Below, piece after piece: positions 1 through 32,770 of a stretch of DNA of 64,000 nt. The notes under the pieces were generated by a model. It did no database searches, was not told the DNA's origin, and saw only the letters and a program-made list of their open reading frames with translations. The position numbers and the translations under genes were made by a program. The DNA lies in contig JABSSW010000052.1 in the NCBI GenBank assembly GCA_018902385.1, positions 1 to 64,000 on the forward strand, read 5' to 3'. The first letter of the stretch is position 1. Every line of letters begins with the position of its first letter. The stretch comes from Physcia stellaris. Lineage: Eukaryota; Ascomycota; Lecanoromycetes; Caliciales; Physciaceae.

Positions 1-3000
1 AATAAAATCATCGTAACAATGTTTAACGTTTTGATATTTTCGCGTACGCGAAAATTCGTGATATTTGATGCGATAAAACGTGAATTAATGAATGTTTTGA
101 AAAATAATCAATTCATACGTTTCGTAAAAATAATTTCGACGAACATTAATAAATAAAAATTGTGAATTTGATTTAACGCGTCAACAATTTTGAAAATTTT
201 GCAACATCAAATTGATATCACGAAACGAACAATTTGAACAAATCGATAAAATTTTTATCATCACGATTAACGCGTCGATGTTATCGCATATACGACGTTT
301 GATTCGTACATTACATTCAACGAAATATGCATGTATTAAATTTTTTGAAAAGCAAATATTTTGAACGAATTTTACAAATAATTTCGCGTGTCATTAATAA
401 ACAATTGAAAATTTTGTTGACGAATTCGTAAATGTTCGAATTTTTTTGACAATTTGTTGTTAATTCATATCATTGCATGACATTTTACATTACTATTTAT
501 TGTTCAATAAAATTTGACGACAATTTTTGAAAATATTTTTGACACGATTCAATTTTTCATGCGACGTAAATTTTGACAATAAATAACGCGAAATAACATA
601 AAAACGAAAAATCGAAACAAAAATTATTTGAATCAATTTGACAATAAATTGTAACGAATTCATGTTGACGTTTTTTGATCGATCATAAACGATGTTTACA
701 ATTTAATCATTTCGTAAAACAGATTTCGCTGTTTTTGAATTAATTTCGTGAAAAACATTCACGATGCTTTGAACATTTTGAAATTCGTCATCGTCGACAT
801 AATATCAGATTCGATCATGAAAATTTCAATTCGATCATTTACAACGATATTGAAAACGATGATAATAATATCGAAATTGCAATATATTATCGAGTTTTCA
901 TTCAAACATTTCATTTGCGATAATTGATTTTGAAAAATCGTTATGTTGTTTTTTCAACGAATTTTTAAAATTTTTTCTTAATAATCAAAAATGAAAAATC
1001 GAATGAATGTGCATATCGTCGAGCAATTTCAATTCATAAACGAAATTTCTTCTTTTGATCATTTTGTATGAATTTAACTTTTTGTCGTTCAATTTGTTTA
1101 ACGAGCGAATTGTTTTTATATGACGACGATTTAATCAAACGTAATTTTCTATTTCAAAATTTATTGAGAAACGAAATTTGTTGATTCGAACAATCATTTT
1201 TTGTTTTGCATTGACAACATTGATTTTGACGTATTCGATGATACAATTCATTTTTTCGACAATGAATTCGTTTTGTTTAATCAGCAAACGTTTTTTAATG
1301 ATGTCGTAATCATTTAAATTTGATTCAAAAATCATTCGAAAATGATAATTCTTATTAATGAAAAATGAAATGAATTCGATGATTGTTGAAACATCGTTGT
1401 TGTCAACGAATTTCATAATATTTATTCAATCAATTCAATCGTTTTGACGATAATTGCAATACAAACGCAATCGAATTTCGATATTTTGATTCGTTCGTTC
1501 GATTTGATCATCGATTTCAAATTGAAATGTCGTGAACAATTTACATTTGATTTTTAATCGTTTACAAAAAAATTTTCAAACGCGATTTACGAATTGATCA
1601 TTTCGATTTGAAATAATGAAAAAAATAATTCATGAATACGAAATACATAATGAAACAATATTTTGACACAAATTTGAATTGTTAAATCATCGTCATCAAT
1701 CACGCAAAAAACGTAATGACGTTTTTGATTAAACGATCGATAATAATACAAATGAATTATTGTTTTTGAAATCAAATAATTCAATTATGAAATTTATCGA
1801 TATATCAATTTATCGTTGATTAAAAATCGACAATAAAATTAACAATTCGTGACGATCATCATATGAAAATTTCGATCGTTAACATTTGTGACAATTACGA
1901 ATATAACGTTTGATAAATAATTTCATATTAAATCAATAATAATAACGTTTAATGAATTTTTCAATACGATTCATGTTCGAATGTGCACAAAAAAATTGAT
2001 CGTGAACGTCACGAATTATTTCAATCATCAAATTTAATTGATTCGACATTCATAAATTTTCGTTTTTAAAAAAAATTTCGTTTCGATCGAAACAATTTTG
2101 TAAATTTATTTTTTCGTTGATGATTTGTTCATCGATCAAAATTTGACGATAATTAATACAATTTTCGTTTTTTCGATTGATTTGCATGACGCGTTCGTAT
2201 AAATCGTTTTGAACGTCAATCGAACATAATTGCAATCGAAAAAATGACAGCAGAATTTGTTTTTTATAAAATTCACGTTCGTCGTTTTCGACGAAACGAA
2301 ATTCAGACATTTTAGTCAAAGCATTCGCTTTGACGTTCTTGATTTCGAATTGATATTGAATTTTGATGTTGTAATTCGCTAAAATTTCGATTCAACGTAT
2401 TTGACGAAAAATAAATTTTTTGTTTGTTATAAAGATTTCGAAATTTTTGTAATCGATGTAAATTTCGATCGATTCGTCGATATTTTCGAATTCGAATTTT
2501 CAATATTTTAAACATCGAATAATAATTAAAAATTTTTTGTCATATATTTCGTAATTGCATTCGACAAAAATCATTTTTTTATTGAAAAAAATCATCGAAT
2601 GAAAAATTTCGTCGTCGTCGTATTGAGATAAAATTTCATTTAAACATCAATTTGAAAAATCGATTTTCAAAATAATTTTACGATTGCGATCGTAATGTCG
2701 AAAAATTGAAATTTCGATTATTTGTTTTTTCAAAATTTCGAATGTTTCGTTAGCGAAATCAATTCATTCGAAATCAATTTTTTTTTTGATTATTCGAATT
2801 AAAAACTTGACGAATTTCGAAAACGTTTTGATAAAACGTCGATAAAAATTGCAAAAATTCACAAACGTTTGCATTTTTTTGATGCATATTGAACGAATTC
2901 AATTGACGATATTTTGCATTTTTTGAAATTCATACGTAAATTTTTTGTCGATAATATAATTTTTAAAAATGAAATTTTTGTTTGAAAAATTCGCATTTTT

Positions 3001-6000
3001 TGATATCGATTTGAAAATCAATTTTTCAATTTTGAAAATTTGAATGAAATGTCGTTCATGTTGTTTTCGAATTTTATTGTAAATGAAAATATCATTCAAA
3101 TACATTTAACAAAAATAATTAATGTATTCAAACAACAAATCATTCATGTAATGTTGTCAATTGATCGAATCATTGATAAAATCGAAAAACAATACATGAT
3201 ATTTGTAAATGTTTAACGAACATATAAAAATAATAAAATTTTCGTTTTGTGAATTCATTCGAAATTTATTGAAAATCGATATAATATTCAATTTGAACAA
3301 AAATTTACAATCGATAATTTTAACGAAAATTTTTCAATCAACGAAATAAAATAATTATTACGTTTGATTATGACGTTCAATTTTCGATAATCGACACACA
3401 AACGAAATTGTTCGTTCGATTTGACGACGAATAAAATAAATAAAACATAAAACGTTTTGTTTGAATTGATAAATTTTTTTTGAAAATTATCGTGTAAATA
3501 TTTTTGAAAAATTTCGAATTTTTTAAACGATAAAAAATAAATTCGATTTCGAAATAATTGATTCGAATTTTTCGTCAATTCGATTTTGTGATCGTAAAAT
3601 TTATGAAAAAATAATTTGTCGATTTTTTTCGAATTGAATACATTTTCGAATCGTTTAAAAAATTCAAAAATTTTACGTTTTAATTTTTCGACGATTGTTT
3701 TCATGATTTTAAAAATTTTTTTGAAATTCAAATCAAAATCAATTTTTATTTTAATTAATTTTTTTTGACGTTGTCAATAATTTCGTTCAATTTTTCATGA
3801 TCAACGAAAATGTTTTGATTTTTTTTTTTTTTAAATTCGATTAGCGATTGAAAAATCGTCGCGTCAATAAAAACGACATTTAACGATGTATCAAAATCGA
3901 AATTTTGTTCGTCATTTTTCATTTCGAAAATTATAATTTTGAATTGTCGATTGAATCGACGCGTGAATTTTTTGATTATGTCGAATTTTTTTATTGATGC
4001 GTTGATCAAAATCGATTTTTGAACTTCGCGTATAATTTTCAATTTTCGTTTTTTCTTGAAAAATTTATTTGAGAAATAATTTTTGTTTATTTTCTCAATG
4101 ACATATTTGAAATTTGAAATCAAAATTTTTTTTATTGATTGTTCGTCTTTCTTCGAGTTTTTCACAATAAAACGAAAAAAAATTACTCGAAAAAATGTCG
4201 AAACGAATCGTTTTTGAAATATTTGATATTTTTGAACGTTTGTCGACGAAAACGACGTTAAAAATCGTTTCGAAAATGATAAATAAAACGTTTTATTCGA
4301 TTGTTTGTTCGAATTAAACAATTTTTGAAATATAAACGAACGTGAAAAAAAAAAAATTTCAACGTAATCACAATGATTTGAAATGAAATAACATTCGTCA
4401 TTGATCATATTGAAAATCATTTCGTGTTTGTTCATTCAAAATTTTTTTAAAATCAACGAATGTTGTTTTATTTTGATAATGAACAATGAAACGAAAAATT
4501 TTGAATGATTTTGTATCGTCATTTTGAACAATATTTGATGAATAATAAATTTGATTTTCGTTTTTTCGAAATTAAAAATTTTTTTAAATCGAAATAAAAA
4601 AATTGAAATTAATTTTAATTTATGACATATTTTTTGCGCAATTTTTTCATTAATGAAAACGTATTCAAAAACATCGATATCAATTAAATCATGAATCATG
4701 ATTTTTTTATCATTCGAAAACAAATTAATTTTTTTAATTAAAAATTTACAATGAAATTCGTTAAAAATGTTATATTGAAAATTTTGAACAAATTTTGATA
4801 ATTTTTTCGCGTTTTCGAAAAAATTGTTAATTTTTCGATTCAACGTCGAATGTGATTGAAACATCGAAATTTATATTATCGTCGTCGATGCTTGAAAAAT
4901 TATCGTTGATCAAAAAAATAATTTGCAAATTAAACATTTTTTATTTAATCAAATTGTCGATTCAATTGTCAAAAAATTTGTCAAAAATGCATTTCTTTTA
5001 TCAATGATTTTTTTCATCACATTTTCGACATTTTTTTTTCAATTTAAACAAATTAAAACGAACAATGACAATTTTATACGTTTTTTTTTAAAAAAATCGT
5101 ATATTTAATTTTCAAATTTTTTATGTATTGTTCATTGCGACGAATTCGAAAACTTAATTGATTGATCGATAATTTGTTTTTAATGAAAAAAATGTTGATT
5201 TTAACATCGTTGTTTTTGATGCGACGATGTTTGTTATTCATGATTTGAAATTTGCGAAAATAATCGTCAAAAATTTCATAATCGTTCAAAACAACGTCGA
5301 CGTGTTGAAATTTCGTTGTGATTTTTTTTTCGAAATCGTGAATTTTGTTTTTTTCATTTTTTTTGAACAATTGATTGATTAAAAAAAAAATTCGAAATAA
5401 AATTCGTTGAAAAATTCAATGAATTTCATTTTCAAATCATCGTATTGACGACGAACGTTTCGAAAATGATCAACATCGATATAAATGTCGTTCAAAAACT
5501 TGAAAATTTGATCAATTGATTCGAAAAAATTGCGTTTAATTTCGCGTCGAATATCGATATGTTTCGCAAATTTTTTTTTGTTCAATCAATAATTGCAAAA
5601 ATTTTTTTGAATTTATCGACGTATCAATCGAAATTGATTTTCAATTTATCAATGCATTTATTTTTTCAAATATCGTAACGAATATATTCGAATGTATTGA
5701 AATTCTTATGTTCAAAAAAAATAAAAAAATCAAAATGTCGAAACGAGCGCGTCTTAAAATCAAAACGAGATTTTTTAACAAAAAAATCAAATTGTTTGAA
5801 CGAACGTTTTTTAAATTCAAAACGAAATTTTTTTTCGAAATTAAAGAATTTTTCAAACTTTGATAATTTAACAGTTTTTTTTCGTTGTTTATTTTTATTT
5901 TCACGAACTCGTTGAATTTTGAAAAACTCATTACATTGAATTTGAACAACAAAAATTTCGACTTTGACGACACGCAAAATCTCGTTGATTTCATACTTTT

Positions 6001-7110
6001 TTTTATTATGATTCGAAATTTTGATTTTCATGTCTTTTATTTGAAAATTTCAGATTCGAATAACGATCACTTTTCGATTTCGATTTCGTCGAAAAATTTC
6101 GAAAATAATTCATAACTCGTCGAAATGATTGACGATCATTGATTGAAATTGTTGTTTCGAAAAAATGTTTATCGAATTAACGATTTTGAACGATTCATTT
6201 TCATCAAGTTCATCGTCATTCTGATTAGAATTTAAAACAAAAAAAATGTCGATGATATGTTGTTCGAAATTTGTGATTATTCGATCAAAAACATACACGT
6301 TCAATTGTGTGATTTCGTTAAACAATAATCGATTTTTCAAATTGATTTCGAAAAAAAAACTTGAAAAAATCATGATTGTGAACTGAAATCGAATAATTGT
6401 TGAAAAAAAAAAAAAAAATGAACAAAACAATGATTTAAATAAATCTTGATGATTGAATTTCATTTAAAATGACAAATTCGATGTGATGTTGAATGAAATT
6501 TCTAAATGTTTGTTTATGATGAAACAAATGAATGTTGAATAAAAATGTTTGTTTGTTGATGTTTTTTTTGATTTAATGATTTTCTGATTTTCAAACACGA
6601 ATGTTTCGTCAAAAATGATAAAAAGAAAAATTTGTTGTATTGTGAATCGAAATTATCGCGTGAATTCGTTTGTTTTGAACGCTTTTTAAAACAAAACAAA
6701 CGAATTTATTATGTTTCGTTTTTTTCAATTCACAACGAGTTTATTATGTTTCGTTGTTTTCGTTGAATGATCAAAATCAAATTGAATCTATTATGTTTCT
6801 ATTCGTTCACTGAATTTAATTGTAAAAAGTTTTGTTTATTTGAATGTTCGCGTATCATGAACGAACATGAAAAAAAAAATGATTTCGATATAATGTGAAA
6901 TGTTATGCAAAAATATAATACTATTACATAATTACACGAAAATATCGAAATGAAAAGCAAATACATGAAATTTGCAAAAACATATGTAAAAAATTTGATT
7001 TTTTGAATGCGTCAAGTCGAATCTCGATTTTAACATTCGATGTGATAAAATAACGATGTTAATTCGATGTTAATTCTGTCAAATGTTGAATTCGATGTAC
7101 GTTCGTCACA
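1..7110 (-). mobile_element. Gypsy LTR retrotransposon fossil, copy A (partial)
   Basis: Broken Gypsy-type element reading right to left; its 3' end lies beyond the left edge of the window. The 5' LTR begins at 7,110 with TGTGACGAACG. Parts seen in order are a gag-like region at about 6,460-5,070, reverse transcriptase with LCVDYRKLN at about 3,401-3,375 and a YLND catalytic box at about 3,102, a region matching RNase H and linker at about 2,515-2,050, and integrase-side sequence down to about 1,135. Peptides match copy B (15,388-22,852) closely throughout, so the two belong to one family. Many breaks are present. The element is old and heavily mutated. Confidence 0.85.
6881..7110 (-). repeat. 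LTR of Gypsy copy A (shared part)
   Basis: This segment, read on the minus strand, matches the two LTR copies of element B (15,388 on and 22,631 on). All begin TGTRACGAACGT and carry the shared stretch ATTTTCGTGTAATTATGTAA. The LTR probably extends further left. At about 6,690-6,795 a motif close to GAAACATAATA recurs three times on the minus strand. The internal LTR boundary could not be fixed. Confidence 0.75.
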
Positions 7111-7859
7111 TTGAATATCGATATTTTTGTTTCGAACGTGTTAATTGAAATTACGAATTAACGTTTGTGTTTTTTGATTGTCGCAATAGATAATGATAAC
7201 AACGAAACAATAAACAAAATTTTTTTAAACAATTAAATTATTTTTGATCGCATTGAAAAATTGCAATTCGTTCAACAAATTCGATAATCAAATAATTTTT
7301 TTGACAATTTGAATTTGATTCATAAATTCGATTTCAAAAATAAAAAAAATTACAATAATTTGTCGTTTGAATAATCAATTGATAATTTCGTTATCGAAAT
7401 TGAAAATGTAATCGAAAATTGAACGACGAATTTTTTTGTTTTCAATTCAATCGACATTCATGTAATTTGTCAAAAAACGAAAAAATTCAAAAAAAATGAA
7501 AAACAAATCGAAAAAAAATCGAAAAAATTTGAAAATTTTAATGACAATTTTTCAATGAATTTTCGTTAAATTAAACGCATATCGATTTATTATTGATATC
7601 GCATATGCAATGTCGAAACGAATTTTGAACATCGCGTACATAAAAAAATTTACAACGAATTGATAACGAAATTTGTCGAAAACGAAACAAATGTAATCAA
7701 AATCAACAAATTCAAATTTGATATTGACGTTTATGAATGTAATTTTATAATTAAAATTTTATATTTCATAATTTTTGAAAAAAAATTTCAAATAAATTTT
7801 TTGATTAAAATAAAAAATTCGTTGTTGTTTATTTTTTGTTACGTTCATGTTTAAATGAT
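7111..7859. other. AT-rich filler between copy A and the Copia fossil
   Basis: Hypermutated DNA to the right of the copy A LTR. It probably includes the 3' part of the Copia fossil that reads leftwards from 9,840, but no domain is recognisable here. A 64-codon plus-strand frame at 7,660-7,854 is most likely a chance opening. Confidence 0.4.
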
Positions 7860-9840
7860 TTCATGTTCGTCATTTGAAAACGTTTATTGAAAATTTTTTT
7901 GATTTATCGAATGAATTTTTTGTTAAATTCAACAATAAAAAAATCGTTCACGTAAATAACGAAAATGATTTTGTCGTTAAAAAAATATTTTGATTGATAT
8001 TCAAAAAAAATTCATGTTTTTTAAAAAAATTGATTAAAATATTGAATCAAATTCGAAACGATTGTTTAAATTTATAAAAAATTTTGCGTAAACGACAATG
8101 AATTTTTCGTTTAAAATCAATATATTCATGAAAAATTTTCATATAAATTTTTTCATCGATGTTTTTATACAAAAAAACGATTTTGATATTCATTTGTTTT
8201 ATTTTTCAATCATTCGTAACGACGATGACGAAAATAATTTTGTAATTTATAAATTTAATAACGATTGAAAACGTTTCGTGATAATCAAAATTTTTTTTTG
8301 TTCGAAATTTCGAACATATTAACGTGTTTTATATTTAATTATTTTATCATTGATTTTTTTTGTTTTATAAATTCATTTATCAAAAAAATTTTACGATTTT
8401 GAAACACGAAAAACACGAATTTTCAAATGTCATTGTTTTTATGAAATTGCATTTTATCGTTCATATTTAATTGTTAATTTATTTTGTGTTGAACGTTTGT
8501 TATTATTTCATTATAAATTTTGAATTCGTGAAAATTTGAAAAAACATATTGAATCAACAAAATCAAAAATTCATTGAAAATCACGACGAAAACGCAAATA
8601 AAAATGTTGTTTTAACGTTTTTTCGAATTGATTGACAATATTGACGATTTCGAATTGAACGAAATCAAAAATATTGATAATCAATTCGTCGATATCATTA
8701 TCAAACAACGTAAAAAATGATCGAATTGAATTTTTCAAAATGAAAAACGAAAAAACAAATTGACGTTGTTTTCGCGATTTTTCGAAATCGTTTTCGAAAT
8801 CGAACGTATCAAAAATCACGAACGTATTATTTTGAAAAACTTTTTGCGATTGAATTTGTGTGAAACGAAAAATGACATCGATGCAATGATTGTCATTTTT
8901 GAATTTCACGTTCAAATTGTTTAAAAAAATATCGATTTGATTTTTAAATGTTTGCGCAAATGATTTTGTCGTTAAATGAAATCGTTTGTTATTCAATCAT
9001 TCGACGTTGAAAAAACGATAAATGTTATTCGAAATGATAATCATTCGATATATGATTTTTTTATCGTATTTTATCAAAATTTCACGTTGACGATGATTTT
9101 GAAATTTTTTTCAATCAATGTTGAATTTGATTATCAAATATTTTTTTTTGATCGATGCGACGAAATTTTTCGATAAAATAAACATGATCGATAAATTTTT
9201 GATAAAAAAATATTGATTTGTCATTGTCGTCGATTACGAAAATGAAAATGAAAACGTTGCGAATGTAATTGACAACATTAACAAATTCGAATCATCATTT
9301 TATGAACAATTTTGAATTTTTCAAAAATGTGTTGATTTTGCGCATAATAATTTGATTAAAACGTTCAACGCATTCGTTCATTTGAAAATTTTCAACAATA
9401 AAAAATTTCATTATGATGTCGCGTTTTTTTCGATAAATCGTAAAAACATTTTCAAAAAATTTATTATCGTTGTCAATTCGTAAACGAATGCAACGAAAAT
9501 GATCGTGTTTAATAATATTCAAAAAATTTTTAAATGAAATCAAAATTTCGAAAAATATTTTGTCGTATAAAATGTTCACGTGAAACATTTGAATGAAATC
9601 GTTAATTCAAATTATTATTCAATAAATATTATTTTGTTTTTTTGAAAAAAAATTTATCAAATCGTCGTGAATAAAATCGTCGACATAACGTTTTGATTTG
9701 ATAAATTTTCGATAAAATTTCGTTTTGTCATTGATTTTTTCGCAAAAAATGCACGAATTCGATAATGATAATTTGAAAAAATCAATATCATGTTGATGAA
9801 TCATTTGAATTATATTTTGAATATTCAAATGATTCAATAA
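7860..9840 (-). mobile_element. Copia-type LTR retrotransposon fossil (D)
   Basis: Broken Copia-type element on the minus strand; only the central part is recognisable. Parts in order are a GAG-pre-integrase region at 9,837-9,619 with HLNIQ and a CIFC pair, an integrase core at 9,588-9,295 with RIDN and NECVERFN, a linker region at 8,996-8,571, and reverse transcriptase with a YVND box at 7,943-7,954. The integrase-before-RT order marks Copia rather than Gypsy. LTRs and gag were not found; gag may lie further right. Many breaks are present and it is as heavily mutated as its neighbours. Confidence 0.75.
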
Positions 9841-12800
9841 TTCGTGTCACATTTTCAACGTGTTTTGATTGACAATTAAACAAATCACAAATTTGTCGAA
9901 TTGAAAAACGTAAAAATTTTGTTATTTCAAAACACGAATGTTTTTGTTATTCATTGCGAAATCGTTGAAAATAATAAATAAAAAACAATCGTTTTGTTGA
10001 AATTGAAAAAAAAAATTATAAATGCAATTTAAAACGTAAAACATTTAATGTATGAATAAATAACGATTTTCGTTAAAAATATCGCAAAGAAATCGCACAA
10101 TATCGTAATCGAAAAATTTGAATTTTTTTTTTATGTTTTCGATTGAAATATCGAAAATGATAACAAAATTGATGAAAAATCAACGATTATTAATCATGTG
10201 AAAAAAACGTTCGTATCGAACAATCAAATCGTGTTGAAATCAAAAATTTTGATGATAACAAAAATGAAAAAAAAATTTGACGACAATAAATTTGTCAAAA
10301 TTGATTGATTTCGAAAAAACAACAATTTCGACGAAAATCGAATGCGTAATTATCGTTTCGTTTACAAATTTTCAAAAATTTTCGTCGAATTTCGTTTTAT
10401 TTTTGTTGTTTTTTTTGTTTTTTTTTTTTTTTTCGTTTGATTTTGATTTTGATTTTGATTTTGATTTTGATTTTGATTTTGATTTTGATTTTAATTATCG
10501 TTACGTTATTAATTTTTGCGTTTGCGTCGTTTTTTTTTTTTTTTTTCGAATTTGTTTGACAACGACAAAATGAAAATGTTTGATAATACATTCGATAATA
10601 TCATGATAAAATTTTTGACAATGATCGCATCATTTGATTTTTTGAATGATAATTTTGATGTGTTCGAAAATGACGTTTTGTTAAAACGATTTAAAAAAAT
10701 TTAAAACAAAATCGATAATCAAAAAAACAAAATTAATATCGTTGATAATCGCAATTTCAAAAAAATTAATATATTAAATTTCGTATAAAAAAATAACGTT
10801 CGAAAAAACGTGTTTAAAATTATTTTTTTGATTATTGTCGAAAAATTTATGTTTCGAAATTCAACGATCAATGAAAAAACGAACGAATTTTGAAAAATTC
10901 GCAAAATATTTGTAAATAAATCAATTTTCATTCATTTTTGAATTGAATGAATAAATGACAAATTCGTTAATAATGTTTCGAAATTTGAATTCAATTCATT
11001 GATATCGACGCAAAAATTTTTTTGAAAAATTCAAATTTGTTATAAATAATCATGAACGCATTGAATTTTTTGAATTTACAAATTTGAATAATTTTTTTTC
11101 AAACATTTTTGATCATATTGATATTTTTAATGTCATGATACAAATCGTCGTTCACAATTGTACGTAAAACAATACAACACAATTCATTATTTTTCATTTT
11201 CAATTGAAAACGTTCGTTGAATATATTTTCACAAACGAATTCATTTGAAAACATTTTTCATTTTTCGATTTCATTTGAAATATTTTTGAAAATCATTGAT
11301 TTTGATAATGATTTTAAAAAAAAAAAAAACGAAAACGAAAACGATAAAAAAAACGTTTTCGACGTCGAATTGAATTGTCGAATTGAACATGATAATTTTG
11401 AAAATTTGAAAAAAAATTGTGCGATTAAACGAAAAAATTCGAAAAAATTCGATGAACTCGATATTTGAAAATTAAATAATGAATTTATAAATGAAAATTC
11501 GACGAATTTGAAAAAAAAAATTGATATTCGTAATTTTCAGTGTTTTTTTCGTTTGATTCGCGAAAATGATCAATTATGATTTGTGCAATTTCGTGTACAA
11601 TATTTGAAAATTTTGTTTCGAAATGTTTTACGTATAAATAACGAATGATTTTTATTTTGTTGATAAAATTGATTGAAAAAAATTGATCAATAAACACATT
11701 TCAATTGAATTGTTGAAAATTTTCGATTGAAAATAAATTTGAATTTCAAATATTGAAATAATTTTGTAACGTTTTCGTTTTTTGTCAATTTTTTCGAAAA
11801 AAAATGTTTGATTATATGCATTTGTTTCAACATTGTTTGAAAATTCAATTTTTGTTGCGACAATAATTTCGATTTTCACGATGATTGAAAATTCAATTTT
11901 TGATAATGCGACAATGATTTTGTTTTCGTTTTGACATTGTTGTCAATCGTTATTGAATTTGAACTTGTTTCAAATGTTTGATTTATTGAAATGTCAATCA
12001 TTTTTTGATTGAATTTTGAAAAACAAAAAATTGAATTTCGTTTAATATTGAATGATTGAATGATTTCAATTTGATTCGATCGTGCATTAATTGCAACAAT
12101 GTTCAATGCGACACGTTTTTAATTTTCGAATTTGTTTTTTTGAATCAATTTATTTGTTTTTTTTTGACAAATCGAATGATTGAAAAATTATCGAATGAAT
12201 CAAAATTCGTGATATTGAAATATGCAATTGCGTTAAAATTTTGATCAAAATCATTTGTCGTTTCAATTCAATTTTGTTTTTGAAATCGTTCAACAATTGA
12301 TCGATTATTGATTTTGATAAATCAATACGAAATTATTGTGAATCGCAATTGTGATTCGTTTGATTGAAAATAATAAAAAAATTGATTGAATTCGAATTTC
12401 GATTGTTCGAAATCAATTGTTCGAATTTTTGTGATGTTGATTTTTCGCAATACGATTTCAAATGAATTGAAAAAATTGAAATTGAAAAATTTTGCATGTT
12501 TTTAGCGACTCGACATTCGTATTTTGACGAAATTAAACGCGTTTTAAATTTCGTTAATCAATTGCGATATCAATCGTTTCACATAATCACATAATTGATA
12601 TATATCGTTTGAATGAATTTATCAATGATTTGTTTGTTTACAATTTCATTAATCAATGCGTTTTTTAACGAAAACGACAAATCGCGAATAAAAAATAAAT
12701 TTAATCGTTTGTTTTTTTTTTTCGACATTTTTGAAATTTGTTTTTGCTCAATTATGTCGAACGAATTTCGATGACATTTTTGAAATTTTTTTTGTTCAAA

Positions 12801-21600: not shown

Positions 21601-21976
21601 CGACGAATTTCAAAATGTTCAAAATATCGTGAATGTTTTTCACGAAATTAATTCAAAAACAACAAAATTTGTTTTGCGAAATAATTAAATCATGAATTTT
21701 ATTGTTTATGATCGATCAAAAAATTGTTATCGAATTCGTTACAATTCATTTTCAAATTGATTTCAATAATTTTTTTTTGTTATTCGTTTCGTTATCATTT
21801 CGCGTTGTTTACAATCAAAATTTACGTCGCATAAAAAATTGAATCGTGTCAAAAATATTTTCAAAAATTGTCGTCAAATTTTATTGAACAATAAATAATA
21901 ATGTAAAATATCATGCAATAAAATAAATAAACGCAAATTGTTAAAAAAATTCGAATATTTACGAATTCGTCAACAA

Positions 21977-22430
21977 AATTTTTAATTGTTTATTAATGAC
22001 ACGCGAAATTATTTGTAAAATTCGTTCAAAATATTTGTTTTTCAAAAAATTTAATACATACATATTTCGTTAAATGCAATGTACGAATTAAACGTTGTAT
22101 ATGCGATAACATCAACGCGTTAATCGTGATAATAAAAATTTTATCGATTTGTTCAAATTGTTCGTTTCGTGATATCAATTTGATATTACAAAAATTTTTA
22201 AATTTGTTAATATGCGAAATCGAATTTTTAATTGTTTGTTTATTAATGTTCGTCGAAATTATTTTTAACGAATTGTATAAATCGATTATTTTTCAAAATA
22301 TTCATTATATTCACGTTTTGTCGCATGCAATGTACATATCGATTTTCGCATACACGAAAATATTATTGCGTTAAACATTGTTATCACGATTTTATTAACA
22401 TGTTCAAATTGTTCATTTCAAAATGTAATC
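21977..22430 (+). repeat. About 250 bp imperfect tandem duplication in the 3' part of copy B
   Basis: Two adjacent, diverged units of about 245-251 bp. Paired landmarks are AATTTTTAATTGTTT at about 21,977 and about 22,223, and GTTCAAATTGTTC at about 22,150 and about 22,402. The same arrangement is present in copy A (about 1-480, reverse strand), so the duplication predates both insertions and belongs to the family. Confidence 0.7.
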
Positions 22431-22630
22431 ACATGAATGTTTTCATTTTGACGAATCAATTTCGTTGACGAAATTCATTTCGCGACGTTTCGCGTTTGTT
22501 TTTTTGTTTCGACGATTAATTATTCAACGTTATTTAACAACACATTTATATCGCGCAAAACGTTCATCGATAAAAAAAACAAAAATCAATTAATCGTTTC
22601 GAAACGAAATTGAAAAAAAACGAAAAATAA

Positions 22631-22852
22631 TGTAACGAACGTGCATCGAATTCAATATTTGAAAAATTAACATCGATTTAATATCGTTATTTTATTACAT
22701 CGAATGTTAAAATCGAAATTCGTTTTAACGCATTCAAAAAATCAAATTTTTTACATATTTTTTTGCAAATTTCATGTATTTGTTTTTCATTTCGATATTT
22801 TCGTGTAATTATGTAATAATATCATATTTTTGCATAATATTTCACATAATAT
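22631..22852 (+). repeat. Right LTR of Gypsy copy B (truncated)
   Basis: Begins TGTAACGAACGTGCATCG and follows the left LTR for about 222 bp. The match then ends, and 72 bp of unrelated AT-rich DNA leads to the LTR of element C. I infer truncation at this end. Confidence 0.75.
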
Positions 22853-22924
22853 CAAATTTCAATTATCGAAAAATCGATTAACAATTGTACAAAATTCTTT
22901 TTTTTGCGAAATTTATTCAATTTT

Positions 22925-23108
22925 TGTAAAAATTCAAAATTAATAGAATTGATGTGAAAAATCGTTTGATTTTATATAATAAATTAATCGCAAAAAGCGC
23001 ATAATTGATTTTGACAAAATTCAAAATCAAAATTAAATTTTGAATTTTAAACGAATATATCGTTTCGATTGTCGAAAAATTTTTTATTCAAACAATTTGA
23101 TCATTACA
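22925..23108 (-). repeat. LTR of element C, left copy (184 bp)
   Basis: Starts TGTAAAAATTCAAAA and ends GATCATTACA, with TG..CA termini. It matches 29,861-30,043 along its whole length. It is clearly more mutated than the right copy. Confidence 0.9.
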
Positions 23109-23739
23109 TTTTTTTTTAAACAACAAACAAATAAACAATTATATTGCGTATTATCAAAAAAATTTTCGCAAATATCGTAAATTGATTTCAAATCGTGTAC
23201 GAAATGAATATTTGAAACAAAAATGTTAAAATCATTTGAATGTCAACAAAACATATTTTTTTTTATTTTTCGACAACAACAACATGATCGAAAAATTTTG
23301 AATTATTTGTAAAATAATTTCGTTTTCAATCAATTTGTATGCGCAATTGATTGAATTAACGATAATTTATGATATCGATCGCGTTCGAATTGTCAATCAA
23401 ACGACGATAAATAAAAATTCAATTTTGTGATAATCGTGATTAATAATGAACAATTTTTAAATCGTTTGACGACGCAATTTCGTGAAAAACATTCGAATTT
23501 GCGTCGAACGACAATAAAAATAAACATCGAATATTTCGAAAATGAAAATAATTTTCAAATTACGCATTTTCAAAATTTAACAATTATTTTAATTCAAATA
23601 AAAAATTTTTCAAATTTTTAATATTTTTTTGTTGAACGTGTACGATGAACATTCATGTTGACAATTGATTTAATATAACGATCGAAAAATTAAATTTTCA
23701 TGCAATCAATGTTCGAACATTCGTTCGTTTATTGTTTAT

Positions 23740-24273
23740 ATGATTTTTACAAACGTCAATCAAAAAACATGCGACAATTGTTTTTACATGTATCGTGTTT
23801 TCGAATGTTTTTTTAACAAATACGTTTTTGTTACAAATTTTGATTCGATAATTGAACAACACAATATTTCAATTACGTTCAATAATCGAATTAATACGCG
23901 TGTTCACGACGATGTGATTGACAATTTATCGTCGTATTTTTTTGTGCGAATCAATCGACGAAAATTTGAAATATTGTCAATTTTAACGATTTTGTTTTCG
24001 TCATTATCGCAATCAATGTTTGCAATAACATCGATTGCGACGACGATTCAAACACAATTCGATCAATCATCAAATAAAAATGAAAATTTTTTTATGAACG
24101 ATAAAAACGATTCGATGTTTGCGTCGTTAAATTTATCGTTTTTATCGACGAACGAAAACGAAATATTCGAATCGAATCAATCAACACAATCAACGATTGT
24201 TGTACAATTATCGATTGTAACACAATCATCGATTGTTCAAAAATTCAAAAAATCGTTTTTTGATTTTTCATGA
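23740..24273 (+). other. 177-codon open frame antisense to element C
   Basis: An open frame on the strand opposite to the element's own genes, between its integrase end and its left LTR. The residue mix is broader than in chance frames nearby, with a CDNC pair, a CFF cluster and a Ser/Thr/Gln-rich tail. I do not recognise it. It could be an antisense frame carried by this family, a fragment of another inserted element, or chance. It lies in fossil DNA, so current expression is doubtful. Confidence 0.3.
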
Positions 24274-27200
24274 TCAAAATCATTTTTTTTTGATTTTGAT
24301 TGATTGATAAAACGTTTGAAACAACGTCGTCAAAATGAAAAAAATGATGCACGTTTCGAACGTGTTCATGTTTTCGTCGTCAAATTTAAAAAATTGATCG
24401 TTGCGTTACGACGTCAAAAAAAAACGTTCGATCGTTCGATATCGTGATATCGATAACGTTAAAAATTAAAAATTTCGTAAAACATGATTTTCGAAATGAA
24501 AATTGAAAAAAACGATAAATTTTTTTGTTGAAAATTAGAAATTCGACGTTAAACGTTATTTGTTTTTATGAATCATGTTACGAAAAATCAATGTTATGAA
24601 AAACGATTTTATCGTGTTTGCGTTACATACGACGATACGAAAAAATCAATCGATTATTTTTTGATTGCATTGATTTATGATTTATTCGTATTTCAAATCA
24701 AATTTTACAAAACGAAACAAAAATGCGAAAGTTTGAATAATAAATACGATTTTTTTTTCATTTTTCGAAAATTTCAAAAAGAAAAAACGACAATAATAAC
24801 AACAATAACATAAAAAAAAAACAACAAAAAATTCGATTTTTCGCGTAAAATCATTTTGTATGAATCGTACAAAATTCGACAAATATTTTTTTTTAAATGA
24901 TTCATATTATGTCATTGTTTTCAAAAAATTTATCATTCGAAAATGACATATAATTTTTATTCGATTTTTTTTTTTAACATTTCGAATTTTGCGCGTTTTG
25001 TTACGTTTTTTTTTCGATATCACGATTTTTTTCGCAACGACGTCAATGATTTCAAATTGTTTTTTTGTTTTAAACGAACGTTCGCGATTTTTAAACATAC
25101 GTTAATTTTTGTTCATTTTTTCATTCACATTGATTAATTTCATTCGATTATCATTGATAAAATATTTATTTGACGATTTTTCAAACGATTTGAACACATA
25201 AATATTCAAAATTTTATTGCGTACGATTTCGTAAAAATCATATCAATCGATTTCGAATTTTTTTGATTTTTTCGTTCGTATCAATATTTTGTCGTTTTCG
25301 TGAAAATTTTTTTTTTGATTTTTACATTTCAAATTGTTTTGTTTTTTTTAACACGTTGCATGATTTTTTTGAATGTTTTTGCGCGTTCACGATTCAAAAA
25401 TGAAATCGAATTTATTTTTTCGTTATAAAAATTTGAAATTAATTCATCGACATCGTCAAACAAAATCGAATTAATTTCATAAAAAAAATAAAAAAATGAA
25501 AAATTAATCGTCGTATGCGTTCGAATTCGCGTAACGAACAAAATTTGATTCAAATAAATGTTTTAATTTTTGATAAAATTTTCAATGCAATATTTGATCA
25601 ATTTATGATTCAAAACGTTATTGAAACGTTTCATTGTTTCGTTCGTTTTTGAATGATAAAAAATAATATTTTTTATGTTTGATTTCAAACAACGCAAATG
25701 TTTTAATTATAACAAATGTTTACAAATTAACATTTTTATCAATGATGATTTTTTTGAAAATTTCGTAATCACGATAAATATCGTTAATCACGAAATTCGC
25801 AAAAATTTCGAAAATTGTTTCAAAAACAACGCGTGCAACAAATCATTTGATTATATAATCAATAACAATCACGATTCATTTGTTATTATTAACAGTGATA
25901 AATAATGATTCGATCAAATCGAAATTTCAACGTTTAAATGATTGATTTTTATCAAATCAAATTTTTGAAAAATGCATTACATTTTTTTGACGTTTTTGAA
26001 TTTAACGATCAATTGACATTTTAAACATATTTGTACAAAATGTTTGATGTTTTTACGCATGTCGAATTATCATTGTTTGATTTTAATAATATCAAACAAA
26101 ATCGTATTCGAACAATAATTATAAATTTTGTGAACATGATTCAAATAATTTGCACGAATTCAAAATTCGATGTAAAAAATTCAATTGTCAACAAAAAAAT
26201 TTCGATAATGCGAAACATTATCGTCGTTCAATTTGAATTGATTTTCATATTTTTTCAATTTCGCATTTCATTTTATTTTATTTGACAAAATTTCATTACG
26301 CGTATAAATTATTATCGTTTCGTCGAAAATAATGATACGCAAATTTATTTGCAAAAATCGCAAACGATAATCGTTTTTTCGATTTAAAATATCAAACACA
26401 ATCATTTCAAATTTCGATTTATATTTGATGTTCAAACGATATTTTTCGAATTTAACGAATCAACAAATCAAACGATTCGATGATTTTATCGTATTTTTCA
26501 AATGTTACAATTCGACGTGATTCGTACGTATCAAAATTGTCGTTTCATTTTTCACGTAACATTTTCATTTTCGCAAAATTTTTTTAATGATCAAAAATTC
26601 ACGTTCGTGAATCGCAAAATTACGTTCGACGAAAAAAAATATTTTGTTTTCGAAAACAATAAAATGTTTTTTGTTATCGAAATTTATTTGATAAAATATC
26701 GTTTTTCATTCGAAATTCGAAACATCGATTTCAATAATGAATAACAAAAACGTATCAAATTGCGTCAATACACGATCATTACATATGACATTTTTGATGA
26801 TCGTAAAAACGTTTTTGATCGAAAATTGTTATAAACATCGATTTGTATTTGCGATTTTCAATTTTTTGAATAAATTCATAAAGTGATTCAATGATAATGA
26901 CGAAATTTTTTATGAATTTTCGATAATAAACACAAAAATTCAAAAAAACGAATATCGTGTATCGTTTGAAACGACGATCAATTTTGAATGATTTTTAATT
27001 TGATTTCGTTTATACGCATTTCATCATTGTTTACGATATGTTTATAAAATTTAATTTGTTTTTGAAAAAAAAAACATTTCGACGATTTCGCATAATAATT
27101 ATGTTTGTAAAAAATTTCAATTACGAATTTTACATGTTCGAAATGTTTTTCGTCGTTTTTGAAATAAATCAATATGTCGTTCAAATAAACGATCACAAAT

Positions 27201-29860
27201 TTGTTCAAATACGATTTCAATATATCATTCATGATTGTTTGAAAAATCGCAAAAACATTAATTAATTCGAAAAACATAACGCAAAATTCATATTTGTTTC
27301 GTTTAATATTGAATGTTGTTTTGTGACGATTTTTTTCGATTACATTGATTTGTCAATAATCATTAATCAAATCAATTTTGTTAAAATTTTTCGCTGTTTC
27401 GATTATGTTTAAACAATTTTGAATTTTCGACAATAAATAATCGTTTTTTTGCGTTATCGCGTTGAAAATTTTATAATTTATACATATACGTCAAAAATCA
27501 TTTTTTTTAAAAAAATTGACGTTTTTTTATAACGACGTGTTTGATTATATTAAATTTTTTTTATTAAATAATCGATTTGAATAATTTGTTCGTTCAATTG
27601 TTTTTTAAAAATTCGTACGAAAACTTGTTTATTGATTTAACGTTTTCAATATCAATGCGATGATTTTGCGATTTTTTCGAAAATGATTGATTCGAAAAAT
27701 CGTTTTTAAAAATTCTTTTCAACATATCGAAATTCAAAATTTTGTTCAATTTCGCGTTGTCGATAATGTGTTGAATAAAAACAAATTTTTCAAACGATTT
27801 GACGATTTCTTGATCAATAATACGAACAACGTACAAATAAATTTGAACGTTTTTTCGTATCAATCGTTCGAAAGCACGTTTCGTTACAATTTGAATTTTA
27901 AATGATTGATTTTCGAAAATTTGCAAACGAAAATTGTGATTTTTCATGTTCGCAAACAGAATTTTTTGATTTTCGTCTGTTATACGCATATCGAACGTAT
28001 TGTAATCAAAAATTAAACGATATTTTTGTTAGAAATTTTCGTTTAAAATCAAATCGTTATTCATATTAAAAATCAAACAATCAATGATTGTATAAAATTC
28101 ATTTTTGTTTCATTTAAATTTAATGAAATCAACGACGTCAACAATTTTATCATTTTTCAATTGCATTTTGTCAAAAAAATGTTGTAATTTTAATTTCAAC
28201 AAATCGACAATGCGTTGAACAATGAAACAATGAAAAACATTCGAATTTGCAAATACAACGACGCGACGTTTTTTTTTTTGCGTTTATATCGAAACGTAAT
28301 CACGTTTTCGACATACGTTTATTAACATTCAAATTGATTAAAAACATCAATTCGTTTTTCGATTGTATTTTTGAAATGTACGAATTTTTTTCACGAATTT
28401 CAAAATTTCAAGATTTCGACGTTTTTATATTTGACATTTTCGAAATCGTGATTGTGATAAACGAAATTTGTTCATTTTCAATTATCAAATCGTTTTTTTT
28501 GTCGATTTTAAACGATTTATCGCGATTATCGTGCAATTTATACGACGACGATTTCAAACGTTTTTCGAATTTTTGTTTTTGTCACGATTTTTATCGTTTC
28601 GACGAAATCGTCAATTTGACGAATCATTTTCAAACACGATAAAATTCGAACAAATTGAAAACAAATGATTCGTTTGATTACAATTGTAACATTTTTTCGC
28701 GAAAACATTCATAACGTTTAAATTTTTTTGTTGTTTATTGTTTTGAACGACAAAAATTTGTGTTAATTGATTCGTCGTTAAAATTGTTCGAAAAACACGA
28801 AAAACATATTTTTTTGCGTTGACATTTTCGTGTTTCGAAACATTCGTCATCATGTTGTGCAAATTCATATTCGAATATATTTGATTTTGATTGAAAATGT
28901 AATTTCGAATATCGATTTTGAATTCGTCACGATATTTTTTTTTGATCGCAAACTCAATAACGTGTTCGTAAATGTTTTCGTACATCGACGTGAATTTGTT
29001 ATTGTAATCGACGATTTTATTGTATACGTCAAATTGAATGATTTCGTTGTATATTTTGAAAAATTTTTGTTGTCAATCGTGCTCGTCTCAACGAATGAAA
29101 AAGTATTTTTCGAATTCGAATCATTTGTCATCAAATTTTTGCAAATGAGCAAACAGAAAAATAAATCATTCGACAATTTTGTTTTCGAAATATTGTTCGA
29201 TAACGATGAAAACATTGATTTTGTTGACTAAATGTGAATTGAACACATGAAATTTTTCGTGTTTGAATAAAAATTTCTTGATTTCAACATGATTACGTTC
29301 ACGTTTTTGAAAAATTGAAAAACGATAATCGATGATTTGATTATCGAAAATGATTTGCGTTTCAATTTGCGCGTTCGACAAAATGAAATCAAACAAATGA
29401 TCGTCGTCGTTAAAATCAACGATGTTCGCAAAAAATTGATTGTGATTTATGAATAAATTGATTCGTGATGTACGTTCACGATCGTGACGAAATTGATCAT
29501 TTAATTGAACGACGACATCATTTTCGACGACGATATCATTTTCGACAAAATTAACGTTTTTTTCGTTCGAATTTTCGACGAATTCGTCAACGATTTCATC
29601 GAATTGATTGTCGAATTCTGTTGCAATGTTCGCAAAATTTGAAAAATCGAAAACAATCGTACGTTGTGAAAAATCATCTGAACGATCAAAACGACGTTTT
29701 AAATTATCATCTTGAATAAACATGATGATTGATGAATAAAAAACTTTAAAAATTTTGAATTTTCAAATGAATATCAATGACAAAGAAAACAATTTGAATT
29801 GACAAAAAGCAATGAGCACAATCAAATACACTGTAAATGTAAAAAAAATGATGCTATCAA

Positions 29861-30043
29861 TGTAAAAATTCAAAACTAATAAAATTAATGTGAAAAATCG
29901 TTTGATTTTATATAATAAATTAATCGCAAGAAACGCATAATTGATTTTGACAAAATTCAAAATCAGAATTAGATTTTGAATTCTAAACGAATATATCGTT
30001 TCGATTGTCGAAAAATCTTCTGTCAAACAATTTGATCATTACA
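29861..30043 (-). repeat. LTR of element C, right copy (183 bp)
   Basis: Starts TGTAAAAATTCAAAA and ends GATCATTACA, matching the left copy. It keeps several AG and CT dinucleotides that the left copy lacks. It lies where the mutation load begins to fall off toward the gene-rich DNA. Confidence 0.9.
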
Positions 30044-30659
30044 CAACAAATATTTCGTCACAAATTACATGATAAATTATCGTTCTCATTTAACGAGACT
30101 GAAATGAATTAACTTTACGTGAATTTCATAACAAATTATCAAAAAATAAAATATAAACTGTGCATTCATCAAACGATGATCGCAGAAAATTTCAAAACAT
30201 AATCGCAAAAACAATTTTCGTTCGTCAAACAAAACAATTGAATATATTGTCATGACGACAATCTGTTTATAACACATGTATGACTCATAAAAATATCATG
30301 ATCGTTCAAAAATTTGTCGAGATTTTTCAAAAATGAATCAATTTCAAGTCAATGCACGAAAAATCACGATGTTTTTAAACGTGCATAATTTAAAATTCGA
30401 ATCAATCAAATAACGTTTATGCGTTGACGTCTTGTTTCGCTTTTTGCGAAAATTCAAGTTAAAAAAAAGTTTCGCTAATAGAATTCACGTATCAGTTATA
30501 AGACATCGACATTGACAAAAAATATTCACAAACGAACGATCAAATCACGATCGTACAGCGAAAACGTACTTGACAAACAATCATACGTGCGATTTTTTCG
30601 ATCGTACAATTGACTTGAACAGTCATGTCAATATCGAATATCGCGACGCGTTCAACGTT

Positions 30660-30845
30660 GAACGTGTTCTGTAAATACAATTCGTTTGATAAAAACAATT
30701 GATTTGAAAATAATCATGTCAACATCACGATTTCATGTCATCATTTTGTGTTGTTTATTGTTTAAAATTTATCACGCATGAAAAACTGAATCGTGTCAAA
30801 GACATTTTCAGAAATTGTTGTTCGATCTGATTGAGCGTTGAATAT
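30660..30845 (+). mobile_element. Short A/B-family Gypsy fragment (F), less mutated
   Basis: This stretch parallels the 3' noncoding part of copy B at about 21,730-21,900; both share TGAATCGTGTCAAA with matching sequence on each side. It is a broken remnant well short of a whole element. It retains many AG/CT sites, so it has seen fewer mutations than copies A and B. Confidence 0.6.
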
Positions 30846-31113
30846 AAATATGAATATGAAACAATTCAACGATTTCAATATAAAAAACAGAAAAAAATAA
30901 AAAATAATAGAAATTCGAATTCAAAATTCATTGTCATTCAATTAGTTGTCAGTCATCAAATCGAAAATTGTGAATTGTACGAAATCAAATTTTCGATTCT
31001 GAAAACAACAAACAATGAAATCATCAAATTATGTTTTTTCTGAATTATTCACGAAAGTGATTTTCAGATTTTTAACGCAAACTGAACAGAAATCGAAATC
31101 GAAAAAAACGAAA

Positions 31114-31205
31114 TTCGATGCGAAAATCACGATCACAATAATTTTTCAAATCAACGATTTTCGATGCGAAAATCACGATTACAATGATTTTTCAAATTTT
31201 CAAAC
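31114..31205. repeat. Two-copy 46 bp tandem repeat
   Basis: TTCGATGCGAAAATCACGAT begins at 31,114 and again at 31,160. The remainder of the unit, around ATTTTTCAAAT, is also repeated with a few differences. Confidence 0.85.
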
Positions 31206-32770
31206 ATGAAATACACACACAGATTTAAGAATATTTGTTGCAAAACATATGAAAAAAAATCATTTCAAAAAATTTCGATGCTAAGAAAAAAACGCATGTA
31301 AAATATTCAAAATTCAAATCGACAAAAAATATAATCGAATTTCGACAAAATTGAAATATGCATCATGATCATTTGCAAAACAAACATCGAATTCGAAAAA
31401 ATGTTGTTTGTATTTTTTTGTACAACAACAAACAATAAATCGAGTGATTTGCAATTGAAACACGTTGTTCGATTTATTCGTACAATTAAACAAACAAAAC
31501 GATTATATAATAGAAAATTTGCAAAACAATTAGTTTTGCAATTATTAATCTAGTCATAATATCGTTTTTTGTTATACATTTTTGATGTCACATTTCGTAT
31601 CTTACATGAACGAAACAATGACATATTTAAACATGTTATGAACAAAATGAAAAAATCAAATGAAAATTTTTTTGATATTTTTCGACGAACAATTTTTGTT
31701 TGTAACGATCGTCACATAACGCATTTAAAATATATTTTCAATCAAATTTTGCATGATATCGAGTTTTTCAATTTCGTCGTCGTTCGATTTGTACAATTTT
31801 TACAATTGTTCGAAAAAATAATGTTTTTCAATTTCGACGAAATGTTATCGTTGATGTGAAATCACATGATCAAACGCGAAAAAATTCGTAAAAACGTGAT
31901 AAAACGAACGTCGAAAACAAAACAACGAATAAAAAAACGATACGATCGTGAAATCAAATTCAAATTATATGTGATCGATCAATACGTATTTTTTCGTGAT
32001 ATCAATTTCATTTTTGACAAAAACGTATTTCGATGACGTGAATCGTTCGTTATCGTTAATTCAATAAATGAATACGAATTCAATTATCATTTTTTGAAAT
32101 TCGATGACAAAAAAATTTTGAATCAATTTCACGATAATCATTTACGATTTTTTTTCGTTCGCGAAAAATATTTGCGATCGATCAATGAAAAAATTTTATC
32201 AATGATGAAAATTTTCAAAAAAACAAAAAAAAAAACGATGAAAAAAACGAAACAAAAACGACAAATCAAAAAATCATTTAAACAATTTATTCAATATAAT
32301 TCGATTTCGATCAAATATCGATAAAAAATTCATTTAATTTTCATACAAATCGAAATTACGTCATCGATATGTTGCAAAATTTCGAAACGTTCAAAAACGA
32401 AATTTTCGAATCAACATACGATTTCGATATTTCGAATTTGCGAAACAATATTTCGTATGCGAATTCTGTTGATCAAATTAAACTTTTGTTTATTATTTGA
32501 TGTAAATTTTTTCGATAATTTTGATGTTTCGAAAATTGTTGAACGATCACACATTTCATTAATTTGTTTGAAATTCAATGACAAAATAACGATAACGTAT
32601 GAATATCGACGCTGTCGTTTCAAAAAAAATTAATAAATTGTCGCTAAGAATAGCGATTTGTTGTGTAAAAAAACTGTTGAAAAAAAATAACAAAAAATTG
32701 ATTGAAAAATCAATTGACAAATTGCACGTGATTAATTTTAAATGTTTAACATTCGATTTTTTACATAATC

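Follow-up and report, generated by a model that had tools for sequence, protein, structure and literature searches.

In Neurospora crassa and most Pezizomycotina, repeat-induced point mutation (RIP) depends on RID and converts CpA to TpA. Here we describe a RIP-like process with a different target in Physcia stellaris (Ascomycota; Lecanoromycetes). The analysis followed up a first-pass annotation of one stretch of DNA, bases 1-64,000 of contig C52 (JABSSW010000052.1) in assembly GCA_018902385.1 (43.97 Mb, 147 contigs), hereafter the window. We consider it likely, with a probability of about 0.8, that long repeats of this genome undergo RIP-like hypermutation directed at CpC, less strongly at CpT, and far less at CpA or CpG, and that a RID-group enzyme would be responsible. 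C followed by a pyrimidine is written CpY below. As in classical RIP, C-to-T changes occur on both strands of long repeats and genes are spared, putative RID-group methyltransferases are present, one copy shows strand-wise tracts, and a ribosomal DNA (rDNA) unit is mutated. Unlike in classical RIP, CpC is affected more than CpT, CpA and CpG are nearly or fully spared, and the product is TpC/TpT rather than TpA. Classical RIP also raises the TpA/ApT ratio, whereas here it is low (0.45) and CpA is not the preferred target.

Targets other than CpA have been described, and are given here after the accessible parts of the papers cited. A survey of ten genomes presents CpA, CpT, and CpG signatures, with CpC not among them in those parts, and ties CpA and CpT to RID-class genes (PMC4352252). 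RIP leans toward CpT in Magnaporthe oryzae and Botrytis cinerea T4 (PMC4352252), CpT is found beside CpA in Colletotrichum truncatum (PMC6180176) and Anisogramma anomala (PMC10998396), and CpT is strong or dominant in alignment-based counts (PMC2621366, PMC7882544), including those of N. crassa Tad1 copies (PMC2621366). These systems resemble the present one in having C before T as a target. They differ from it in that CpT accompanies CpA, TpA/ApT is raised in C. truncatum and A. anomala, and CpC is not named as a main target in the accessible text.

The CpG- or TpCpG-directed RIP-like processes of basidiomycetes (Microbotryum, Rhizoctonia; PMC4352252, PMC4014442) share with P. stellaris a C-to-T hypermutation outside CpA, and differ in their target, as CpG is not hit here. 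In Rhizoctonia solani AG8, Table 2 of the source gives one C/T single-nucleotide polymorphism per 214 bp for CpC, 370 for CpG, 422 for CpA, and 491 for CpT, and the authors stress CpG (PMC4014442). The R. solani polymorphisms fall in genes and repeats and in all contexts, whereas in P. stellaris only repeats are affected and no context is better protected than CpG. Methylation by N. crassa DIM-2 is likewise non-CpG and pyrimidine-leaning (CpT), and a homologue is present here; however, it is methylation rather than fast strand-wise mutation, and no CpC preference is reported for it in the parts accessible. In Stagonospora nodorum repeats, CpC and GpG are depleted beside dominant CpA (PMC2621366), and Monilinia shows CpC to TpT double changes beside classical CpA mutation (PMC8959702). 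An open-access literature search, with most subscription papers outside it, found no CpC as a named main RIP target in the accessible parts of the papers. The first-pass annotation had stated that no fungus was known with CpY as the dominant context. CpT, alone or beside CpA, is already in print as a target; for CpC, the statement stood within that search. On this basis, CpC-led mutation would be a new form of RIP-like process.

Results

Dinucleotide Composition

Positions 1-32,770 of the window have a guanine-plus-cytosine (GC) content of 23.8% and contain no CC and a single GG (position 15,164). CT and AG are rare (126 and 115 occurrences), and CG was found 1,907 times, an observed/expected ratio (o/e) of 4.12. 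CA (1,831, o/e 1.24) and TG (1,899, o/e 1.27) were retained, and TA was infrequent (2,027, o/e 0.43). Mononucleotide shuffles (n = 200) of 1-32,740 gave a mean of 926 CC+GG and a minimum of 850, compared to the one observed. Within the window, CC and GG are missing for longest from 1 to 15,164 and from 15,164 to 32,830; the third longest such stretch measures 77 bases. Plain AT-richness and codon bias were ruled out as explanations, given these shuffles and the existence of unmutated relatives of one element.

Trinucleotide counts on both strands of the AT-rich part retained TCA (2,063), TCG (2,117), ACA (1,295), and ACG (1,369), while TCC (0), ACC (1), and GCC (0) were practically absent, with a CCN total of 1 and a CT total of 241. 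The base 3' of the cytosine, not the base 5' of it, therefore decides its fate. Composition was ordinary in 32,800-64,000 (GC 49.6%; o/e 0.91 for CC, 1.05 for CT, 0.90 for CG, and 1.13 for CA), and each of the 31 kilobases in 33,001-64,000 held at least 80 CC+GG. The edge is sharp: past 32,000, the earliest CC or GG is at 32,830.

These counts bear out what had been read from the letters by eye. For bases 1-300, the hand count of 25 CpG, about 16 CpA, and no CC, CT, GG, or AG was reproduced exactly (25, 16, and 0 for all four). The single GG noticed over roughly 30 kb, where hundreds were expected, is the only one there, the strong CpG enrichment is real, and CpY is near zero on the left of the window and normal on the right.

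Polarized Mutation Spectra

To give the changes a direction, an open-frame reference was chosen from stop-free RVT_1 matches. This element, L035 (on C12), is of the Ty3/Gypsy type, with zinc knuckle, reverse transcriptase, RNase H, and integrase in open frames, a protease match below the cut-off, and a GC content of 52%. C-to-T changes were tallied on both strands by their context in the reference (L035:600-7000). A second unmutated copy, L036 (on C5, 96.4% identical to L035), gave the background of 2-3% (CC 29/922, CT 26/784, CA 19/821, CG 20/854). The first 500 bases immediately outside the element were AT-rich at both the L035 and L036 loci.

Three mutated relatives, with identities of 81, 75, and 73%, were picked from 32 listed matches for their length. 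The changes were CC 724/934, CT 327/788, CA 22/826, and CG 20/870 in L037; CC 878/935, CT 624/791, CA 32/825, and CG 18/869 in L038; and CC 901/937, CT 654/793, CA 43/826, and CG 24/871 in L039. The three have thus lost 78-96% of CpC, 41-82% of CpT, 3-5% of CpA, and 2-3% of CpG. The CpG loss equals background in all three, and CpG is not a target. From these counts, CpC would be mutated about two to three times as readily as CpT in each copy. Using L036 as the alternative reference gave the same spectrum.

Order of Attack in Retroelement Family A

Two copies of a retroelement family, family A, lie in the window, and 28 copies outside it were added (n = 30). CpG was constant at 59.2 ± 1.8 per kb irrespective of the degree of mutation, while CC+GG ranged from 0 to 7.8 per kb and CT+AG fell from 65.3 down to 1.6 per kb. 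These levels indicate that CpC is attacked first, then CpT, and CpA much later, with CpG untouched. The most mutated copies, L016 (15318-22396 of the window) and L007, had TpA at 71-73 per kb compared to about 55 in the least mutated copies, and their CpA was lowered, a hint of an additional, weaker process directed at CpA.

CpG decay was rejected as an explanation, since CpG is constant over the 30 copies, and with CpA loss at 3-5% against 78-96% for CpC, standard RIP fits no better than methyl-CpG decay, as the first-pass annotation had argued. Its claim that CpA and CpG are both spared held for CpG; CpA is spared to a large extent yet not completely, with slow erosion in the most mutated copies. 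In the repeats examined, CpA was nonetheless far less depleted than CpT.

Stop Codons and an rDNA Pseudogene

The pol frame of L035 contains 17 TGG, 21 CAA, 21 CAG, and 29 CGA codons. In L039, TGG had become TGA at 17/17 positions, CAA had become TAA at 1/21, and CGA had become TGA at 0/29; TGG to TGA changes were found at 16/17 positions in L038 and 10/17 in L037. The change from TGG to TGA arises because the CpC cytosine is lost on the opposite strand. Mutation of CpA would instead give TAG at these codons and would turn glutamine codons into TAA or TAG. Stop types were taken from the match table for 150 scored RVT_1 matches genome-wide, in which TGA (250) far exceeded TAA (33) and TAG (3). 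TGA was the only stop in 112 matches and occurred with another stop in 26, while two had stops without TGA and ten were stop-free. With TGA making up 250 of the 286 stops, an alternative genetic code (TGA as tryptophan) was considered, and was rejected because a region free of CC and GG cannot encode glycine (GGN) or proline (CCN), and because the open copy uses TGG.

A mutated rDNA unit, L060 (C41:44399-47552), also shows the CpY pattern. It was the sole 5.8S match, with 39 of 2,644 candidates scored. We scored it at the upper-case (strongly conserved) Rfam consensus positions of 5.8S and of the first five printed blocks (1-453) of the large subunit (LSU); later LSU blocks and the small-subunit match were left out of the count. 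C-to-T changes were found at CC 13/14, CT 9/23, CA 0/15, and CG 0/17. This test is independent of the transposon reference because the ancestral sequence is known across eukaryotes. The process proposed in the first-pass annotation, in which cytosines of CpC and CpT are mutated, is thus found in the polarized spectra, the rDNA pseudogene, the 30 family-A copies, and the RVT_1 stop types alike.

Extent in the Genome and RIP Indices

Random 600-base samples (n = 20) were drawn at positions taken from partly estimated contig sizes. Eight were AT-rich (GC 0.19-0.31), six of them with no CC or GG and the others with 2 and 4, and twelve were normal, with 55-113 CC+GG. The two AT-rich samples with residual CC or GG, L047 (4) and L050 (2), had abundant TpA, unlike the other six, and are possibly of different origin or age. 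The bias was thus absent from the gene half of the window and from 12 of the 20 samples, and, being spread over many contigs of the 44-Mb assembly, it is not a local assembly artefact. C:G to T:A change on both strands was confined to duplicated sequence, with 13971-15317 of the window as an exception among the matches listed.

Classical RIP indices do not register the region. In 1-32,770, TpA/ApT was 0.45, (CpA+TpG)/(ApC+GpT) was 1.36, and the composite index was −0.91, compared to 0.63, 1.28, and −0.65 in the flank. The usual thresholds are 1.1 for TpA/ApT and 0.75 for the substrate index. None of 64 windows passed both. The thresholds of 0.89 and 1.03 given in the accessible part of PMC6180176 were likewise failed by 1-32,770 as a whole. 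Indices built on TpA and CpA therefore misjudge the region, as had been anticipated: the composite value lies below that of the genes. The ratio (CpC+GpG)/(TpC+GpA), one of the further indices of RIPCAL in the part of PMC2621366 available, separated the two halves, at 0.000 in 1-32,770 and 0.738 in the flank.

Cytosine Methyltransferases

A PF00145 search of the genome returned three C5-methyltransferases (four candidates, four matches, three places); no search was aimed at DNMT5. L002 has an ENV triad and a DUF7893 domain and appears DIM-2-like. L003 carries PPCQFFS and EQT, L001 carries PPCQSFS and EET, and in both the distance from motif VIII to motif IX, judged by eye, is about 70-80 residues. 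Between L001 and L003, identity is 40% in the first half of the catalytic domain, 41% in a stretch reaching motif IX that takes in the recognition region, and 34% in the N-terminal region, while L001 and L002 share 26% over the catalytic half. The accessible text of PMC6709928 gives as marks of the RID group EQT or EET replacing ENV and a target recognition domain of 80 residues, with EET in Botrytis and Pseudogymnoascus. By these marks, L001 and L003 are putative RID-like proteins of the RID/Masc1 group. Two RID-class genes per genome are also in print: genomes carry one or two RID/Masc1-like copies, with two seemingly tabulated for Botrytis and Sclerotinia (PMC4352252), and A. anomala has two rid orthologues (PMC10998396), as far as the accessible parts of these papers go.

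Strand Tracts, Timing, and Neighboring Bases in L037

The least mutated of the three relatives, L037, shows strand-wise tracts. Its bottom strand is mutated throughout, at 0.56-0.80 of target sites per 400 bases, while its top strand has gaps in which few target sites were mutated (4/91 in 1000-1800, 0/41 in 3200-3500, and 2/61 in 5300-5800). Over these same gaps, the bottom strand was mutated at 92/120, 32/42, and 56/70 sites, respectively (counts summed from 100-base bins). Adjacent target sites were correlated when they lay on one strand (phi 0.175), but those on opposite strands were not (phi −0.073). Hot and cold stretches were defined from the local rate of CC and CT jointly. On the top strand, the rates were 0.85 for CC and 0.52 for CT in hot stretches and 0.18 and 0.05 in cold ones; the bottom strand gave 0.87 and 0.50.

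The CpC and CpT rates rise and fall together, which favors a single activity. The competing explanation is that CpC and CpT are each served by an activity of their own, as the pair of RID-like paralogues might supply, and that the two jointly resemble a CpY preference. The presence of such a pair, with its 40% identity in the first half of the catalytic domain, and the clearing of CpC ahead of CpT would agree with this. However, CpC and CpT share the hot and cold tracts of L037, and each of the three copies has an estimated ratio between their rates of about 2-3, which is expected of a single enzyme of graded preference. We regard two activities as unlikely.

Compared to L035, L037 had 1051/1722 CpY sites changed from C to T, 59/2962 A/T sites changed, and 38 transversions, while L036 had 55/1706, 106/2922, and 53. 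L037 is no older than L036 by ordinary divergence, and its CpY mutations therefore arose within a short time; in this one copy, in which it was tested, C-to-T change did not accumulate gradually in step with age. This bears on a slower route, in which DIM-2-type maintenance of dense non-CpG methylation with a CpC/CpT preference in heterochromatin is followed by slow deamination of 5-methylcytosine, without a burst. A DIM-2-like gene with the ENV triad is present (L002), N. crassa DIM-2 mainly methylates non-CpG cytosines with CpT preferred (PMC13297926, accessible part), and the erosion of CpA in old copies points to an additional process of slower pace. Slow decay is hard to reconcile with 1051 CpY transitions in a copy with fewer A/T changes than L036, with strand-wise tracts interrupted by cold gaps, or with a CpC loss close to saturation in copies where CpG and CpA stay near background. 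We consider it improbable, more so than two activities.

Bases other than the 3' neighbor had limited influence. On the evenly mutated bottom strand of L037, rates depended little on the −2 or −1 base (CC 0.83-0.92, CT 0.42-0.55) and moderately on the +2 and +3 bases (CC 0.77-0.94, CT 0.38-0.63). AID/APOBEC- and bacterial-toxin-type deaminases take their specificity mainly from the 5' neighbor of the cytosine. Such a deaminase, acting on single-stranded DNA with no methyltransferase involved, could be processive on one strand and fits the strand-wise tracts, but the 5' base hardly matters here (by the −1 base, CC 0.83-0.91 and CT 0.43-0.53) and the 3' base decides, as in RIP, which makes this explanation very improbable. 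A sequencing, assembly, or base-conversion artefact, for which the pattern is extreme enough to look artificial, has a negligible chance of being correct, as about 31 kb adjoining in the same contig are normal, unmutated copies (L035, L036) exist, the family-A copies are graded, and chemical or enzymatic conversion would not be expected to spare CpA.

Repeats and Genes of the Window

The AT-rich half of the window consists of nested mutated repeats, mostly retroelements, and other copies in the genome were found for nearly all of 1-32,770. The features are as follows.

1-7111, minus strand: retroelement family A, copy 1, mutated; 0 CC/GG; reverse-transcriptase match of its relatives on the strand equivalent to minus.
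7111-13135, no strand: repeat family B, mutated, about 6 kb, between both family-A copies; matches of 91-94% on C84 (two), C48, and others.
13132-13970, no strand: mutated repeat fragment; single match, 92%, on C87.
13971-15317, no strand: CpY-depleted stretch, no partner among the matches listed at E 1e-20; contains the sole GG of the region (15,164).
15318-22396, plus strand: family A, copy 2 (L016), inverted relative to copy 1, more mutated, some CpA loss; edge between 15,318 and 15,388.
22916-30043, minus strand: repeat family C, mutated, about 7.1 kb; six near-full-length matches, 91-95%.
27047-27499, minus strand: reverse-transcriptase remnant in family C; two in-frame TGA.
30045-31606, no strand: mutated repeat fragments; diverged relatives, matches of 68-87%.
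31607-32770, no strand: repeat family D, mutated, about 1.16 kb; six other copies, 87-93%; CC/GG 0, CT+AG 8, CG 75.
32771-32829, no strand: boundary; CT/AG frequent again from 32,773, CC/GG returning at 32,830.
32898-33057, no strand: dispersed short repeat, about 160 bp, normal composition; 40 further short matches listed, 77-92%.
33421-38859, minus strand: chitin synthase with myosin motor domain (profile match), normal composition; unmutated control.
40819-45834, plus strand: second chitin synthase, divergent, normal composition; unmutated control; myosin match slightly below the Pfam cut-off.

Further genes in the right half encode a TatD-like protein and a thiamine-diphosphate enzyme. The chitin synthase pair, by its arrangement, would point to the Pezizomycotina.

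For family A, 34 genome matches to 1-5000 were found among the matches listed, and the matches to 5001-7111 adjoin the places of these (e.g., on C50, C20, and C29). RVT_1 matches lie on the strand corresponding to minus within several relatives (e.g., on C57, C39, and C68). Within the window, 17529-22396 aligns with 4845-1 at 89.6% identity. With loose scoring, aligning the AT-rich half to itself produced long spurious matches, and another self-alignment was used instead; the pooled contexts of the latter mix five alignments, and the family-A pair was therefore recounted separately. The stretch 13971-15383 contains CC 0, GG 1, CT 3, AG 2, and CG 80. Leakage of mutation beyond duplicated sequence is known for RIP, and 13971-15317 would be either a very old repeat or the result of leakage from its neighbors.

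Six fetched copies of the short repeat of about 160 bp had a GC content of 0.45-0.50 and 15-21 CC+GG. RIP in Neurospora has a minimum repeat length, and the intact state of this repeat is in line with a RIP-like length threshold, without proving it. The repeat is possibly a short interspersed nuclear element or a miniature inverted-repeat transposable element.

A 97.1% copy of 32001-34556, crossing the AT-rich edge, was found at the extreme end of a small contig, C133. The C/T differences between the two (CG 13, CA 14, CT 6, CC 5) show no CpY bias. This copy is probably an alternative haplotype, which would imply a heterokaryotic, diploid, or mixed sample. It lies mostly beyond the mutated part and was kept out of the evidence.

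Discussion

Several observations weigh against a RIP-like process aimed at CpY in long repeats. Strand tracts were clear in one of the three mutated copies; L038 and L039 are near saturation and gave no such signal. CpA is not at background everywhere: its loss in L039 was 43/826 compared to 19/821 in L036, CA+TG was about 120 per kb in the least mutated family-A copies and 97-107 in the most mutated, and a comparison of the window's two copies at sites with both neighbors shared found differences at 134/477 CpA, 56/512 CpG, and 38/41 CpT. Two long copies that are 96% identical, L035 on C12 and L036 on C5, escaped mutation, and the process therefore does not hit all repeats at once. Conversely, 13971-15317 is mutated with no repeat partner among the matches listed. 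The repeat of about 160 bp, compared between the six copies and that of the window, showed a mild CpC lean in its C/T differences (CC 31/115, CT 14/78, CA 23/159, CG 4/97), which leaves room for a light mutation of short repeats. No intact 5.8S was found among the 39 candidates scored of 2,644. Finally, the link to the methyltransferases is one of presence only, with three candidates placed by motifs and pairwise identity.

In the RIP-like process that we favor, a C5-cytosine methyltransferase from the RID/Masc1 group, with L003 (EQT) and L001 (EET) as the likeliest candidates, would act on duplicated DNA, presumably in the sexual phase. It would travel along one strand at a time and convert target cytosines to thymines by deaminating them either directly or after methylation. 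The change of target from CpA to CpY may stem from an altered recognition of the 3' neighboring base, and the DIM-2-like L002 may contribute. A more specific version, to which we give somewhat less than even odds, is that a RID-group enzyme, probably the EET-type L001, came to recognize pyrimidines in place of A as the 3' neighbor. The outcome would be a genuinely CpY-specific RIP, by which a large part of the genome (8/20 samples) has been mutated.

In surveys, RIP is mostly defined by CpA loss and TpA gain, and such indices call this genome, with its very clean preference for context, RIP-negative, more so than its own genes. If the reading proposed here is true, screens based on CpA and TpA overlook every species with a CpY switch. 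A predicted diagnostic elsewhere would be repeats free of CC and GG in which tryptophan codons have become TGA and glutamine codons are kept. RID catalysis was not detected in vitro (table of PMC13297926, in the part accessible), and the two RID-like enzymes of P. stellaris would form a natural pair for asking what sets the target of RIP.

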